The notes beneath the pieces are model-generated. The model was not told the origin of the DNA. It was given only the letters and a program-made list of their open reading frames with translations, and did not search any database. A stretch of 33,324 bases of DNA from an uncultured Alphaproteobacteria bacterium (GTDB lineage: Bacteria > Pseudomonadota > Alphaproteobacteria > RF32 > CAG-239): positions 1 to 33,324 of the forward strand of contig UQFU01000011.1 in NCBI GenBank assembly GCA_900540425.1. The letters run 5' to 3'. The translations under genes and the position numbers were made by a program. Shown here one piece after another: positions 6,919 through 27,140 of this stretch; positions within the stretch are counted from its first letter, which is position 1; each line of letters opens with the position of its first letter.

Positions 6919-7719
6919 ATGAAAAAAAAGTTTTACGAAGCCGCAAACCTGCTTCACTCTGTTCTGAAAGCAGAAACAAACTGTTTTCAAAATGGCAGTA
7001 TCATAGCGGCAACACATGTTGTTGCTATTGATGATGATGCTACGTCAGCAATGTATGCCGCCAAATTATATCATCAAATACATAAAAAGCATGGATATTA
7101 TCCTACAGTCCTTTGTGTTGGTGGTAAGGGTCTTATGAGCAGGCATACTCACCAAAAAAGTGAGGCTGAGCTTCTGGCTTATACCGCTCAGAAACTTGGT
7201 GTGGCTTGTGAGCATATTGTAATATTGGGAGAAGGGAAAAACAGCGGCGATAACGTTTTGGCGGTTGCTTTCGAGCTCAAAGGTAAAAATGCTGTGGTCA
7301 TCTGGTGTGCGACACAGAGGTTAAGTTTGCGGCTGGAGAGAACACAGGCCAAACAGGCGCCCGAAATAAAATCATATTACTTTGTTATTTGTCAGACAAT
7401 TGATGAAGTAATGCGATTATATAACGGAAAGGGTTTGTGCGGCGGACAAATGCTTTTGCATGAATTGGCCAGTATTTTGAACAGATGCGAAGCATATGCC
7501 GGAACATTTCAGCAGCCGTTAGAATTTAAGATTTCCGACGATGTTCGTAAAGCGGCAAAATTGCTGGAGAACAATTATCGGCTGAAGCTGCCCCAAAAAA
7601 ACGTTAGGTCTTATATGCAATTAATTAAACTGTACTTATCTGTTCTGAAAAACAAGAAACATATGAAAGACGATTTAGAATTCGCTATAACGGCTTTCAG
7701 AAAACAGTTGGATTGCTGA
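6919..7719 (+). CDS. DUF218-like (YdcF/ElyC/SanA family) protein
   Basis: A 266-residue cytoplasmic-looking protein with no signal peptide or membrane segment. Residues 30-150 resemble the DUF218 fold: hydrophobic strand AATHVVAIDDD, then TVLCVGGKGLMSRHTHQKSE, then KSEAELLAYTAQKLGV and a GEGKNSGDNVL motif that matches the family's S-x-N-T-x-E-N region. The C-terminal 110 residues are helical and unfamiliar. DUF218 proteins are linked to envelope maintenance and vancomycin sensitivity in E. coli (SanA, ElyC), although those are membrane-anchored and this one is not. Base use is more AT-rich than the flanking operons, which fits a recently acquired gene. A strong terminator follows. The family call is moderate and the function unknown. 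Confidence 0.65.
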   Translation: MKKKFYEAANLLHSVLKAETNCFQNGSIIAATHVVAIDDDATSAMYAAKLYHQIHKKHGYYPTVLCVGGKGLMSRHTHQKSEAELLAYTAQKLGVACEHIVILGEGKNSGDNVLAVAFELKGKNAVVIWCATQRLSLRLERTQAKQAPEIKSYYFVICQTIDEVMRLYNGKGLCGGQMLLHELASILNRCEAYAGTFQQPLEFKISDDVRKAAKLLENNYRLKLPQKNVRSYMQLIKLYLSVLKNKKHMKDDLEFAITAFRKQLDC

Positions 7720-7728
7720 TTAATAAAA

Positions 7729-7768
7729 AAACATCCTTAACCGTTAAAAATGGTTAGGGGTGTTTTTT
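7729..7768 (+). terminator. Rho-independent terminator after the DUF218-like gene
   Basis: A stem of about 14 base pairs (two G-U), with arms around TCCTTAACC and GGTTAGGGG and a 9-base AT-rich loop at 7743-7751, is followed by a T-run at 7763-7768. It lies 10 bases after the stop codon. Confidence 0.85.
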
Positions 7769-7793
7769 GTTTGTATCAAAACTTTAACCTTTG

Positions 7794-7841
7794 CGCACCA
7801 TCTAAAAAAGCTCCCCGAAGGGAGCTTTTTTAGATGGTGCG
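7794..7841. repeat. Perfect palindrome, 22-bp arms with a 4-base CGAA loop
   Basis: Bases 7794-7815 are exactly complementary to 7820-7841. The inner arm AAAAAAGCTCCC / GGGAGCTTTTTT is a symmetrical terminator able to act on both strands, and the outer CGCACCATCT / AGATGGTGCG extends it. The inner part recurs, inverted, in the terminator at 8605-8622 and, with one loop change, at 11347-11364. The preceding gene already has its own terminator at 7729, so the plus-strand need for this one is unclear. It could bound the AT-rich region, stop minus-strand transcription, or be a remnant of a palindromic element. Confidence 0.75.
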
Positions 7842-8053
7842 TGATACTATGCAATTATCGGACTAATTTCTATGATGATTTTAAGCTTTTGAGTAGAAAT
7901 TTACAAGACACTCATCGACACTAACTTTTACCTTATTAAATGTATCACCCAAATAAGTTCATAATACATACAAAAATGTCTATCTGCACAATCGTTCATA
8001 AGATACTTCTTTGTAAAAAACAAGTTTAACTAAAAATTCGGAAATTTTGTCTA
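7842..8053. other. AT-rich non-coding stretch upstream of the RNA promoter
   Basis: No reading frame of any length is visible on either strand. The stretch has its own pairing potential: AATTTCTA (7865-7872) with TAGAAATT (7894-7901), and ATCGTTCATAA (7991-8001), which is an exact 11-bp match to the complement of 8102-8112 beyond the promoter. This could mean that the structured RNA begins further upstream, or that the arms are a binding site around the promoter. Short helices are expected by chance at this base composition. Confidence 0.5.
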
Positions 8054-8086
8054 TTGACAGATGTTTGAATATATGATATGTATAAT
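8054..8086 (+). promoter_or_regulatory. Sigma70-like promoter of the putative large RNA
   Basis: A perfect -35 TTGACA lies at 8054-8059. The -10 is TATGTA at 8077-8082 (17-base spacer) or TATAAT at 8081-8086 (21-base spacer). No protein gene follows; the next features are serial hairpins and a terminator. Transcription would start near 8089-8093. Confidence 0.6.
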
Positions 8087-8089
8087 ACT

Positions 8090-8628
8090 GTTATTTAATT
8101 ATTATGAACGATCAGGAACGCAAAAAACTGATTCTTTTTATATAAGGCATTAACATCATCACGCAACACCTGAAACACCCATGGGAAACGTGAAAAAAAG
8201 ACTATTATGGTCGTGCTGTGATAGTCAGATGTTAATTTTGTGGTAATTATTTGGAGGACTTTTTTATTCCAAAGAGTAATTGATTTTTATAGGTTAAACT
8301 AAGCATTGAGACATATGCTAATGAAAGAGTTTAAGTATAAAGGTCGGGCTGCCTTATTATAGAATGAATTAAGCTTTGTCGCGAATGGGGATACGCAGTA
8401 ACACAGTAACACACTACGAAATGAAGACTAAAATTTGTGTGCTTGCCGGTTTTAGTTCGAGTTTTGATAGTATGTGTTAGCGGAGAAATTTATTATGTAT
8501 ACAAGCACTGCCTCGTAACTGGTTCTGCAAACTTCTAGTTCTGGTGTTGGAATTAGAACCTAGTAGGACAAAAGAGCGAGAGAGAGAAATTCCTTGTGAA
8601 TTTTAGCTCCCTTCGGGGAGCTTTTTTT
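8090..8628 (+). ncRNA. Putative large structured non-coding RNA (about 540 nt), unassigned
   Basis: The unit is bounded by a promoter (8054-8086) and a UUCG-loop terminator (8605-8628) and has no convincing reading frame. Local helices follow one another: 8111-8115 with 8128-8132; 8150-8157 with 8228-8235, enclosing 8159-8163/8189-8193 and 8200-8205/8221-8226; 8250-8255 with 8268-8273; 8286-8291/8336-8341, 8294-8300/8328-8334 and 8302-8306/8315-8319 stacked as one long hairpin; 8394-8396 plus 8399-8405 with 8473-8482, enclosing 8426-8433/8450-8457; 8518-8526 with 8555-8564; and 8587-8591 with 8599-8603. I find no tmRNA tag and acceptor arm, RNase P core, 6S bubble or SRP motif. A 13-codon frame (ATG 8104 to TAA 8145) lies near the 5' end and may be chance. 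By size it resembles large ornate RNAs such as ROOL, but I cannot show relationship. Confidence 0.55.
8605..8628 (+). terminator. Terminator with UUCG tetraloop
   Basis: AGCTCCC (8605-8611) pairs with GGGAGCT (8616-8622) around a TTCG loop closed by C-G, the extra-stable UUCG tetraloop, followed by seven T (8622-8628). No T-run is present on the opposite strand, so this is a plus-strand terminator. Confidence 0.9.
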
Positions 8629-8632
8629 ATGT

Positions 8633-8842
8633 TTAAATTTTATTATATCTAAGTTCGGATGTTTTTTTTAATTCTTCAACATTACTGATTTTATTTTCAT
8701 TTTCATAGGATCCATACATTTTAGACTTAGAATATAAATATCTTGTTATTAAAAAGTCCGATAATTCTTTTAAAACCTTCAAATTAAAAACATCTAAAAT
8801 CGGACTAACCGAAAGCCTTGAAATACATACAAAAAAAGCACC
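8633..8842 (-). pseudogene. Possible C-terminal remnant of an unknown gene
   Basis: On the minus strand a frame is open for about 69 codons and ends at TAA 8635-8633. The peptide is protein-like: LSVSPILDVFNLKVLKEL, then FLITRYLYSKSKMYGSYENE and EELKKTSELRYNKI. There is no ATG near its start (the first in-frame ATG is at 8718) and the frame opens inside the tRNA terminator, so an intact gene is unlikely. It may be the stump of a gene lost by deletion, or a chance frame in AT-rich DNA. I do not recognise the family. Confidence 0.3.
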
Positions 8843-8853
8843 TCAAAAGGTGC
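8831..8853 (-). terminator. Terminator of the tRNA-Thr transcript
   Basis: On the minus strand GCACC (8853-8849) pairs with GGTGC (8842-8838) around a six-base loop, followed by seven T (8837-8831). It starts 12 bases after the tRNA 3' end. Confidence 0.85.
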
Positions 8854-8864
8854 ATTCTAAAAAA

Positions 8865-8939
8865 TGGTGCCGCCAGTAAGAATCGGACTTACGACCCCGT
8901 CATTACCAATGACGTGCTCTACCACTGAGCTATGGCGGC
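8865..8939 (-). tRNA. tRNA-Thr (anticodon GGT)
   Basis: A 75-base cloverleaf with encoded CCA (8867-8865). The acceptor is GCCGCCA / TGGCGGC plus discriminator A. The D arm GCTC...GAGC has a GG in its loop. The anticodon stem CGTCA/TGACG holds loop TTGGTAA, so the anticodon is GGT and the tRNA decodes ACC and ACU. The T stem is GTAAG/CTTAC, and its loop reads TCCGATT rather than the usual TTC-R-A, so position 55 is C instead of the near-universal U. The rest of the gene is intact and it has its own terminator. Confidence 0.95.
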
Positions 8940-9041
8940 ATAATAATGTTTATCTGTGTGTGAAACATACATAAACATTTAAATAAAATCAAGTCTGTTT
9001 TACAATTATTTTAAAAATATTTTATATTTGTGGAGAAAATG

Positions 9042-9200
9042 ATGAATAAAGAGGCAGTTAGCAGCGAAAAAAAATCCCGTCCCCGAGCCGAAGCACGTTT
9101 TGAACGCGAGGCGGCAGCTCTCCGTAAAAACTTGGAAAAGCGCAAAAAACAGCAACAGGCTCGCAAGCAGCTGAAAAAACAGACCGATTCTGAAAAATAA
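9042..9200 (+). CDS. Small basic coiled-coil-like protein, 52 residues
   Basis: A short frame with good codon use and a ribosome site GGAG at 9032-9035, six bases before ATG 9042 (ATG 9039 is also possible but closer). The product is MNKEAVSSEKKSRPRAEARF followed by a run of Lys, Arg, Glu, Gln and Ala that should form one charged helix (REAAALRKNLEKRKKQQQ). Small charged proteins of this sort are common and unannotated in Alphaproteobacteria. There is no membrane segment and no known domain. Nucleic-acid binding is possible from the charge but not shown. It lies alone between the tRNA and the lipoprotein gene. Confidence 0.6.
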   Translation: MNKEAVSSEKKSRPRAEARFEREAAALRKNLEKRKKQQQARKQLKKQTDSEK

Positions 9201-18730: not shown

Positions 18731-19519
18731 TCATTGCACCTCCAAAAGCAGAGAAGAATTGAGCGTCAGGTTGTCTCCCGGCATATAGCTCCGGATCTTG
18801 TATCGGCTGAAAATTTCCGGTTCCAGTTTTTGATAGAAAAGCTGTGAAAACTTTTCCGCATCCCGGACAATCAGAAATTTTATGCCGTCTTGGCGCAGCT
18901 TGTCAATAAGAGGGACTTTTTCTTCAATCATGCTGGCGACAAAAACTGCATCATATTTTTGATAACAGACTTCTTCGGCGACGCTGCAAATAAAGTTCAT
19001 CGAAATGCCGAGATTGCTGCATAAACGGCGGGAAATATCCAAAGCTTTGGCGTCCCGGTCGATTAAATCAATTTCATAGCCGCCCATCTGCCGGAGCAAA
19101 ATGGCCGTCATCGGCAAAGAACCGGATCCGGCAAAAGCGACTTTTTTAACATCACTCAGATTTTTAACCAGCTCATATTCGTTCTGCGTAATTTGCAGAT
19201 ATTGTTTGAAATACCAAAAAGCGCTTAACTGGCTGATGCTGCTGATGCGGGAAGCGACAAATCTTTCGGCCCAGAATTTTTCCATTTCGCATTCTGCCTT
19301 ATATGAAATTTTCCGGATTCTTTCCACTATTTTTTTGAGGGCGCGACTGCCCAGAAGCCGATTGCAGAAATCGCTGCTGCACGTGTTTTGTTCAATCAGC
19401 CGCAAAACCAGCTGGTTTAATGTCTGGTTGACGGTTTCGTTCCGGGGAGACAAGTCTTTCTGGCTTTTCAGTTGTTCATAAGACTTTTGAATAAATTTGA
19501 TGATTTCTGGTTCACTCAT
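18731..19519 (-). CDS. Nicotianamine synthase-like aminobutyrate transferase
   Basis: A 262-residue protein that resembles nicotianamine synthases (NAS, and bacterial CntL-type relatives). The SAM-binding Rossmann strand KKVAFAGSGSLPMTAILLRQ (about 127-146) matches the NAS signature G-S-G-x-L-P-x-T. An acidic strand YEIDLIDRDAKALDISRRL and KYDAVFVASMIEEKVPLIDKL follow, then FLIVRDAEKF where NAS has the L-x-V-R-S/D strand. NAS-type enzymes move aminobutyrate from S-adenosylmethionine to an amino acid or amine to make metal-binding opine metallophores such as staphylopine, or nicotianamine. Divergent to a Fur-family gene, with a Fur box at its apparent transcription start. No opine dehydrogenase or exporter is in the window. 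A plain SAM methyltransferase is the alternative. Confidence 0.72.
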   Translation of the reverse strand: MSEPEIIKFIQKSYEQLKSQKDLSPRNETVNQTLNQLVLRLIEQNTCSSDFCNRLLGSRALKKIVERIRKISYKAECEMEKFWAERFVASRISSISQLSAFWYFKQYLQITQNEYELVKNLSDVKKVAFAGSGSLPMTAILLRQMGGYEIDLIDRDAKALDISRRLCSNLGISMNFICSVAEEVCYQKYDAVFVASMIEEKVPLIDKLRQDGIKFLIVRDAEKFSQLFYQKLEPEIFSRYKIRSYMPGDNLTLNSSLLLEVQ

Positions 19520-25435: not shown

Positions 25436-26305
25436 ATGTCAGACTGGTTTGAAAATGCCTGCTGCCGGATGAGCGGCAGGCCGGCGGAAACGGCTTCCTT
25501 CGGACAACGTTTTACCGCCGCGGGCGGACGCTGGCTGCGAATGATATTTATGCCTTTTGCTTTTCTGATTGACCATTTTGGGTTATGGCTGCGGCTGTCG
25601 TTGCTTTATGCCTTGGTGTTGAGCTTGCTTTCCTGGGGGCTCGGATATCTTTACGTTTGTGCGGGAACGGCCGAAACCGCCGGTTTCTATTGCCGTAATT
25701 CGGTTCCGGTTTATTTGCTTTACCTGTTTTTGCGGGTTGCGTTTTTGGGCTTGTTTTGCGCCAAGTGGATTGAGGCTGCTGCCGGAAAAGAAATTTTTTC
25801 GTGGCGGCAGATTGTCCTGCCGGATGTTCGGTCTTGGCGCACGGCCGGATTGCTGCTGGCTTTGGCCGGATTAATGGTCTTCCCTGCCGGTTCTTTTGAA
25901 CTGTTGGCCGCGCGTGTGCCCAATCCCGATTGGCGTATTGAAATAGCTTATTTTGCAGTTGTTTCTACCGGTTTTCTGGTGCCGCTTCTGGCTATGCGTT
26001 ATTATTCCTGGCTGGCTTTTGCCGCTTTGGGGGAGGCTTTGCCGTCTTTCGGAAAAACCTGGTGCCGGACGCGTTGTCAGATGTTCAAAATTTTGACCGC
26101 CTTGTTTGTCATAATGCTGTTGGTCATTTTTGTTTTCGGTAATTATTTTATTGCCTTCCGATATCCGGGAGAGGGAAGCTTGGCCTTTTTTGCCGCGGTT
26201 TCGGAATATGTTTTTAATCTGCTGTCTTTGTTGTTTATGGCCCTGTTTGCCGGTCATTGCCTGGTGCAGAAACAGATGATGTTTGGAGAAAATGAACATG
26301 AATAA
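25436..26305 (+). CDS. Predicted polytopic membrane protein, unknown
   Basis: A 289-residue protein with about six hydrophobic spans: two between residues 35 and 80, one near 90-112, and others near 140-156, 170-195, 220-240 and 255-280. The N-terminal 25 residues are soluble and include paired cysteines (CCRMSG). I see no catalytic motif and do not recognise the family. It starts one base after the dnaE stop, so it shares that operon. The next gene, also a membrane protein of similar size, overlaps its end. The two may form a complex or be distant paralogues. Confidence 0.7.
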   Translation: MSDWFENACCRMSGRPAETASFGQRFTAAGGRWLRMIFMPFAFLIDHFGLWLRLSLLYALVLSLLSWGLGYLYVCAGTAETAGFYCRNSVPVYLLYLFLRVAFLGLFCAKWIEAAAGKEIFSWRQIVLPDVRSWRTAGLLLALAGLMVFPAGSFELLAARVPNPDWRIEIAYFAVVSTGFLVPLLAMRYYSWLAFAALGEALPSFGKTWCRTRCQMFKILTALFVIMLLVIFVFGNYFIAFRYPGEGSLAFFAAVSEYVFNLLSLLFMALFAGHCLVQKQMMFGENEHE

Positions 26306-27140
26306 CCCCAAAATTGTTATCCCTTTTTGGGAAGTGATAAAACGCAGTTTTAATTATGTTTTTCTCAATTTTTCATCAGTTTCCCGACTTATTGCAGTTC
26401 CGGTTTTGGTGATGGCGGGAGGGCAAATGCTGTTCAAATCGCAGGGCATGCTTTTGCAGCTGGTTTTGCTGCTGCTGACCGCTTTTGTCGGTGTCAGCTG
26501 GAGCCGGTTGGTTATCCTGAATGAACAGCCCCGTTTTTCAAAAGTGCTTGTCGGGTGCATTTTCCGCTATCTGCTCAATTATTTGGGAATAGCCTTGCTT
26601 CTGTTGTGTCCGGGAATATTGGTGTTAATGGGAATGTATGTGTTTGGCGATGCGGCGCAGCAGGAACAGTTTGCGTTGTTGGCCGCCGGAAAAGGCAGTC
26701 TGGAAGGTTCCGCCCGAATATTGATTTGGCCGCTTGTCACGGTTATTGTTTCCAGCCTGATTTGCGCGCGTTTGCGTTTGAGCTTAGCCGCAGCGGCAGT
26801 TGAAGACCGTGAAATCGGCCTGATAAACGCTTTTCGGATAAGCCGCGGAAACACGTGGCGGATTTACGGCGGCCTGATTATTATTGGTCTGCCCGTACAG
26901 ATTCTTTATGTGCTGGTTGTTCAAATGGTTGTGGTTATGCCGCAGGGAAATCAGTTTTTTTCCGCGGTCGGCATTATTGCCGGTGCGGCGCTAAGCCTTG
27001 TTGATATTTGTCTTAAGGCTTCTTTTGATGCTCATGCTTATCAGTATTTTACATATTTTTATCATAAACGGACCGAAGACGAAGAAGCCATGGCCGCCCG
27101 CACGTTGGTTGAAGAAGAAATCAAGCACCGCCGCGATTAA
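26298..27140 (+). CDS. Predicted polytopic membrane protein, unknown (pair with the preceding gene)
   Basis: A 280-residue protein starting at ATG 26298, which has GGAGAA seven bases upstream and overlaps the previous stop by eight bases. It has a short N-terminal amphipathic helix (VIKRSFNYVFLNF), spans near 28-45, 50-68, 95-115, 140-160 and 205-245, and a charged C-terminus (KRTEDEEAMAARTLVEEEIK). A central arginine-rich loop RLRLSLAAAAVEDREIGLI resembles the YIP/DUF-type transporters and glycerophosphoryl-diesterase membrane domains in layout only. Function unknown. Confidence 0.68.
   Translation: MNNPKIVIPFWEVIKRSFNYVFLNFSSVSRLIAVPVLVMAGGQMLFKSQGMLLQLVLLLLTAFVGVSWSRLVILNEQPRFSKVLVGCIFRYLLNYLGIALLLLCPGILVLMGMYVFGDAAQQEQFALLAAGKGSLEGSARILIWPLVTVIVSSLICARLRLSLAAAAVEDREIGLINAFRISRGNTWRIYGGLIIIGLPVQILYVLVVQMVVVMPQGNQFFSAVGIIAGAALSLVDICLKASFDAHAYQYFTYFYHKRTEDEEAMAARTLVEEEIKHRRD

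Follow-up and report, generated by a model that had tools for sequence, protein, structure and literature searches.

A candidate gene for a structured non-coding RNA, about 535 nt in length, lies at positions 8093–8628 of the window, i.e., the whole 33,324-nt stretch of DNA that was analyzed. We put the probability at roughly two in three that this interval encodes such an RNA and that a small mobile cassette carries it as its only cargo. The first-pass annotation had described an interval that combines the absence of a protein gene with promoter-like hexamers, a terminator, and nested helices, and this description was confirmed. Its interpretation as a new large structured RNA gene is supported as the best reading of the interval, because no Rfam family reaches its cut-off there, no open reading frame (ORF) is present, and a distant species has a full-length homologue with near-invariant blocks, stems of variable length, and compensatory changes. 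The evidence for the candidate, which comes from two sequences, is good, not final. The sequence comparisons also show defined cassette ends, their repeated use at tRNA-Thr in the order, presence of the cassette in a distant host, and a core fold that is kept. If the reading is correct, this RNA represents a new class of large bacterial RNA, and its setting offers a way to approach its role: the sister cassettes include defence-type genes, the RNA cassette appears to have moved between distant hosts, and it could be removed or added as one unit.

Table 1. Features of the candidate RNA cassette and its surroundings (positions are those of the window).
Feature	Position	Strand	Basis or remark
Candidate structured RNA gene	8093–8628	+	Start placed from the −10; fold statistics, homologue, alignment
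Promoter-like hexamers TTGACA (8054–8059) and TATAAT (8081–8086)	8054–8086	+	21-nt spacing
Intrinsic terminator with TTCG loop, AGCTCCC-TTCG-GGGAGCT-T7	8605–8628	+	Terminator scan
Upstream region within cassette, probable regulatory region	7964–8053	+	86/90 alignment columns identical in L111
Mobile cassette (1.03 kb) at tRNA-Thr 3' end	7841–8870	.	Ends recur in relatives; junction sequences; 84% in L111
Left-end att motif ATACTATGCAATTATCGGACTAATTT	7844–7869	+	40/153 genomes of the order
Right-end motif	8751–8806	+	Resembles large serine recombinase gene 3' end; L028, L013
tRNA-Thr(GGT), integration target	8865–8939	−	tRNA prediction, Rfam
Probable native tRNA-Thr terminator with ATGGTGC core	7797–7840	−	Terminator abuts tRNA end in L012
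P1, long closing helix 8129–8148/8351–8371, encloses P2, P3, P4	8129–8371	+	Mean pair probability 0.92
P2, invariant 9-bp helix ATTAACATC/GATGTTAAT	8149–8236	+	Inner hairpins unlike between homologues
P3	8244–8282	+	8 pairs: 3 one-sided consistent changes, 0 broken; tip lost
P4, 19-bp helix 8280–8300/8328–8347	8280–8347	+	L111 tip has other length and pairing
P5, closing CGC/GCG, outer helix 8399–8405/8473–8479	8394–8482	+	4/7 pairs doubly changed in L111
Conserved 3' domain (P6, P7)	8508–8604	+	119/121 columns identical over 8508–8628

The candidate RNA locus is located between a DUF218-domain gene (6919–7719) and the tRNA-Thr gene. Among 80 loci, the closest ptsP relatives are those of metagenome-assembled Alphaproteobacteria (93% for L001). 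Of the promoter elements, the perfect TTGACA −35 named by the first-pass annotation is present, but the sole good −10 lies 21 nt away, and this poor spacing accounts for the lack of the promoter in the consensus-scan list. The homologous locus L111 (genome G039) has TTGACT and TATAAT with the same spacing. The terminator with its UUCG loop was also recovered, and the base use is indeed unlike that of the flanks, with a GC skew of +0.24 in 8001–8500 vs. +0.02 in 7751–8250. The ORF listing shows no ORF longer than 49 aa in the entire cassette (7844–8864), which agrees with the claim that no protein gene is present, and the longest ORF with a start codon within the RNA is 37 aa. A GGAG, an ATG, and then a frame of seven codons lie within 8480–8518 (six codons in L111); these may be a tiny ORF or a coincidence.

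The position of the RNA beside a tRNA gene is explained by the cassette that carries it, which was inserted at the 3' end of tRNA-Thr. Direct repeats of ATGGTGC bound this cassette (7834–7840 and 8864–8870). The terminator outside the left end is similar to the one that abuts the tRNA in L012, as expected if the terminator of the tRNA itself had been displaced by the insertion, and it is probably the displaced native one. In G039, the whole cassette and the tRNA can be aligned to the window at 84% identity, with the alignment ending at the far end of the tRNA. The two hosts are distant, with ptsP only 58% identical between them. Despite this distance, the flanks of the RNA within the cassette contain 29 mismatches in 444 aligned columns (92.3% and 94.5% identical). 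The cassette therefore probably moved between distant hosts recently.

For homologues in related genomes, 152 genomes of one family and then 153 of the order were searched. One full-length homologue was found, in G039 (1/153 genomes of the order), and is 76% identical with gaps. In the family, order, class, and phylum searches, at most two to four candidates per genome were scored, so weak homologues could be missed. With L111 as the query, 10 of the 153 genomes have matches at E ≤ 0.001, namely G039 and nine others with weak matches (E 1e-4 to 9.5e-4). These nine matches are all short; L113, L118, and L119 were inspected, and the L119 match was rejected as a homologue because it falls within a long coding frame. 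In samples of the class (385 genomes) and the phylum (398 genomes), which partly overlap, matches were found only in G039. When 22 genomes were searched at E ≤ 0.1, 17 of them had matches, often to the terminator and otherwise short (up to about 55 bases); among them, L092 is a short match among coding frames and was rejected. Two covariance models (R1 and R2) applied to 46 loci, and R1 applied with stricter filters to the 153 genomes, gave good scores only for the two known copies. The first protein query had no match in the genome contigs, and blastn had none in plasmids. In a phage collection, blastn gave a single 56-base chance match, to a Vibrio phage present as two records. Finally, three exact RNA patterns and one cassette-end pattern were all absent from viral contigs.

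The pattern of change between the two copies appears RNA-like, with three nearly invariant blocks and rewritten stems between them. The conserved blocks (8120–8172, 8329–8387, and 8508–8628) contain 6 mismatches in 230 aligned columns (Fisher p 0.029 vs. the flanks), and the variable stems (8173–8328 and 8397–8507) contain 47 mismatches in 202 columns plus eight gap events (p 5e-9). Both p-values are optimistic, as the block limits were drawn once the alignment was known. Per aligned column, mismatches are 3.6 times as frequent in the variable stems as in the flanks; columns 8054–8119 and 8388–8396 were assigned to neither class. The fast change of the stems may have resulted from selection for change or from exchange with unseen alleles.

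Within the helices, the clearest compensation is in the outer helix of P5, which reads TAACACA/TGTGTTA in the window vs. CAATCAA/TTGATTG in L111, such that four of its seven pairs have changed on both sides and none is broken. The other listed helices together have eight one-sided consistent changes, including two in the inner eight pairs of P1, again with no broken pairs. This tally leaves out two basal positions of the P1 register that are unpaired in the window too, and is biased towards kept pairing because the helices were chosen for pairing in both homologues. Between these two sequences, pairing is kept through sequence change, as expected of a structured non-coding RNA gene, except in some peripheral hairpins. 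The 10-bp helix proposed by the first-pass annotation can be formed (CGC-AG-TAACACA/TGTGTTA-GCG at 8394–8405/8473–8482), but the minimum-energy fold of the window favours a shifted register with 8407–8422, and the compensated P5 helix differs from that register. The inner hairpin of P5 is conserved and has the loop GUGCUUGCC. The annotated hairpin at 8286–8341 exists as part of P4 (mean pair probability 0.93). As for the series of nested hairpins, those named earlier exist, but four helices of the window have no counterpart in the predicted fold of L111. These are the 12-bp hairpin 8200–8211/8215–8226 and the helices 8250–8256/8267–8273, 8304–8310/8318–8323, and 8169–8172/8180–8184.

Folding of the alignment gave z −4.96 for the RNA (0/60 shuffles as good) and no signal for the left flank (+0.64). 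These shuffles preserve column classes, not dinucleotides, and the result is not pure covariation because they also destroy single-sequence stability. By region, P1–P4 beats 150/150 shuffles and the 3' domain 200/200. P5 alone is weak on the sequence-only alignment (z −1.97, 8/200 as good), and values for the right flank and the left extension (7844–8200) are −2.05 (4/200) and +1.55, respectively. Arm shuffles gave 152/3000 in the window and 157/3000 in L111 for the P5 outer arm, 512/3000 and 2/3000, respectively, for the P3 arm, and 0/3000 for the window hairpin 8194–8227. Shuffled 3' segments pair with the 5' arm of P5 in 1.1% of cases for L111 and 3.1% for the window, where the segment is one base short. 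Two loop–loop pairings (8164–8170/8543–8549 and 8439–8445/8502–8508, the second with one consistent change) were considered and dropped, and are not relied on here because 380 of 2000 shuffles also contain a 7-bp match between the loops, which is near chance.

Taken singly, the RNA of the window has a fold z of −2.96 and that of L111 −4.22, with none of 100 dinucleotide shuffles equally stable in either case; the antisense strand of the RNA gave −2.13 (1/100). A rougher scan covered the central 319–400 nt of 48 cassette segments, with 16 shuffles each. On the forward strand, the window ranks 10th of 48 (z −2.07) and L111 third (−3.01), the reverse strand of the window has −3.3, and some coding cassettes are as low as −3.7. 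Stability alone is thus not distinctive among the cassettes, and the case rests on the homologue.

These comparisons bear on an unlikely alternative, in which the interval is a decayed protein gene (e.g., a broken recombinase or other cargo) in a normal cassette and its hairpins are incidental. The AT-rich composition, the lack of an ORF, the loss of several window hairpins in L111, and the equally low fold z of coding cassettes are all consistent with decay, as is the resemblance of the cassette right end to a recombinase 3' end. In addition, 8155–8253 weakly resembles a recombinase zinc ribbon at the peptide level (best E 0.006; z 5.96, the best of 18 tests). However, this recombinase similarity is missing from L111, and a decayed recombinase was tested as the origin and found unsupported. 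None of 109 cassette proteins matches both homologues at E < 0.1. The conserved blocks also change less than the flanks (with limits set post hoc, as above), and the changes within the listed helices keep the pairs. Peptides from all six frames of the two homologues show resemblance in more than one frame of each strand, most strongly on the minus strand, and no reading frame is outstanding among them.

A structured RNA may instead belong to a known family. In the Rfam scan at the gathering score, no family other than tRNA reaches the cut-off in the window and none does so in the interval, in line with the first-pass annotation. Its claim that the landmarks of tmRNA, RNase P, 6S, and SRP RNA are lacking also agrees with the scans (no tmRNA by ARAGORN or Rfam, and no Rfam match for the others), and the models of group I and group II introns have no Rfam match either. 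Sub-cut-off matches in the RNA are mostly at the terminator hairpin, for example PyrG_leader (cut-off 65 bits; scores of 22.1 for the window and 24.4 for L111) and CRISPR-DR46 (far below its cut-off in both homologues). The likeness to ROOL, GOLLD, and OLE noted earlier stands for size and setting, but the covariance models are unmatched. ROOL and GOLLD are the nearest kinds in size, complexity, and setting, with the candidate falling outside their models.

ROOL is a non-coding RNA of large size and elaborate structure that is found in mobile DNA, in many cases close to tRNAs, and ROOL and GOLLD are still without known function (PMC12286853). The candidate shares with ROOL the large size, the mobile DNA, and the tRNA vicinity, with the ROOL studied in PMC12286853 being 659 nt and the candidate about 535 nt. 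Unlike ROOL, the candidate is seen as the only cargo that a 1-kb cassette carries, outside a prophage, and it has no Rfam match. Similarly, GOLLD is found in mobile DNA near tRNAs and has a conserved 3' part and a less conserved 5' part, whereas many GOLLD RNAs exceed 800 nt (PMC12286853) and the candidate, at about 535 nt, has no Rfam match. OLE is also a large structured bacterial RNA of similar size; however, it is described from Gram-positive, mostly extremophilic or anaerobic species unlike the host here, and the candidate has no Rfam match to it. It is improbable that the candidate is a divergent member of one of these classes beyond the reach of the Rfam models. Size, tRNA vicinity, mobile setting, and the GOLLD-like division into conserved 3' and variable 5' parts (PMC12286853) would fit, but ROOL, GOLLD, and OLE are absent from the matches up to E 10 of both homologues (7720–9050 of the window and 120–1040 of L111).

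The location in a mobile cassette could also mean that the cassette uses the RNA, or the DNA strand in folded form, for its own mobility, such as a folded att site or a guide RNA of the recombinase. Guide RNAs of recombinases do exist, as described for bridge RNAs (PMC11208160). However, a DNA search and the two covariance models found no clear copy in other loci with the same ends (R2 gave five weak hits elsewhere, E 0.24 to 4.8). Since no clear copy of the RNA was found in the other cassettes examined, it is probably not their mobility signal, and we regard such a role as very unlikely. The least credible alternative, that a ribosome-site-like GGAG and the seven-codon frame (8495–8518) are the functional part as a small-peptide gene or leader, is consistent with the survival of the GGAG, the ATG, and the frame (six codons in L111) through a 3-nt length change, but it explains little of the conserved RNA, the last codons fall in a conserved helix region, and no gene lies between this frame and the terminator; the RNA is also probably not a leader because the cassette has no gene downstream of the terminator.

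The structured RNA cassette belongs to a system of cassette arrays at tRNA-Thr in the order. Of the 153 genomes of the order, 40 have the left-end motif (up to three mismatches), and its reversed control gave 0 hits. Among the 385 genomes sampled from the class, the motif is present in two (G039 and G002), both of which belong to the order. From 40 regions, the window, and five further loci, 74 segments were delimited, each running from one left end to the next or to the tRNA end. Some loci gave no segment, L001 and L182 are one place, and a few long segments (e.g., 6.6 kb in L165) probably comprise something other than a single cassette. Of the 74 segments, 70 have an ORF of 100 aa or longer, with the exceptions being the window, L111, L169, and a 436-bp segment of L158; the two RNA cassettes (window and L111) have no ORF longer than 49 aa. 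The 900-bp cassette of L169 (6672–7571, minus strand) has no ORF longer than 72 aa and fold z values of −2.7 and −2.8 on the two strands, and it has no match to the window RNA.

Arrays with an integron-like layout at tRNA-Thr were observed in L028 (1506–6540), L153, L157, L167, L170, L183, L184, and others. Integrons are characterized by the tyrosine recombinase IntI and attC sites. Both systems have small cassettes, shared recombination ends, and shuffled order, whereas the arrays described here, which are likened to integrons by layout, involve the end of tRNA-Thr and a recombinase of the large serine type. Such a recombinase is encoded next to att sites of the array system at L171:10457–11986, not in the cassette of the window itself, and its domains are Resolvase, Recombinase, and zinc ribbon. 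Recombinase pieces are present in L005, L028, L162, and L173, and a recombinase C-terminus abuts tRNA-Thr in L013. The remnants in L005 (6094–6816) and L028 (5522–6298) are 5'-truncated serine recombinases, the first codons of which run on from other sequence.

The cargo of the arrays includes restriction-modification and Fic genes. A 769-bp Fic cassette occurs in differing company in L028, L157, L167, and L179 (96.7–99.9% identical). Among 20 segment proteins (including the recombinase) scanned with Pfam, 10 are above the curated cut-off, and PADLOC matched 8 of 10 proteins, including restriction enzymes, methyltransferases, and the candidate families PDC-S04 and PDC-S01; these proteins were hand-picked from the ORFs, not sampled at random, and one PADLOC match is through ankyrin repeats only. 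In the published work covered by our search, with subscription journals mostly outside it, no description was found of the RNA cassette or of an array in gut Alphaproteobacteria. The analysis brings this array system to light, and the tRNA-Thr cassette arrays may interest more readers than the RNA does.

In the structured RNA reading, the candidate would be transcribed from its own promoter, the transcript would end at the TTCG terminator, and the RNA may act in trans as a folded molecule, alone or with a host protein. The large serine recombinase of some arrays would move the cassettes, joining them at the tRNA-Thr end. Within the accessory array, the RNA may serve as a trait gene that the host can do without, perhaps for phage defence or competition. 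Such an accessory trait is the most likely role, which we infer from the association with the other cargo. A more specific proposal, which we consider doubtful, is that the RNA is an RNA-only trait gene, most likely for phage defence or interference, in a tRNA-anchored defence array built by the serine recombinase; the fast stems and the kept core would then reflect an arms race or repeated recombination.

Elsewhere in the window, 18731–19519 (minus strand) encodes a nicotianamine synthase-like protein (Pfam NAS, E 1.4e-25) beside a Fur-family gene, and such a gene is unexpected in a gut alphaproteobacterium. Moreover, two adjacent ORFs (289 and 285 aa) at 25436–27140 have no Pfam match, and the AT skew there is as low as −0.48.
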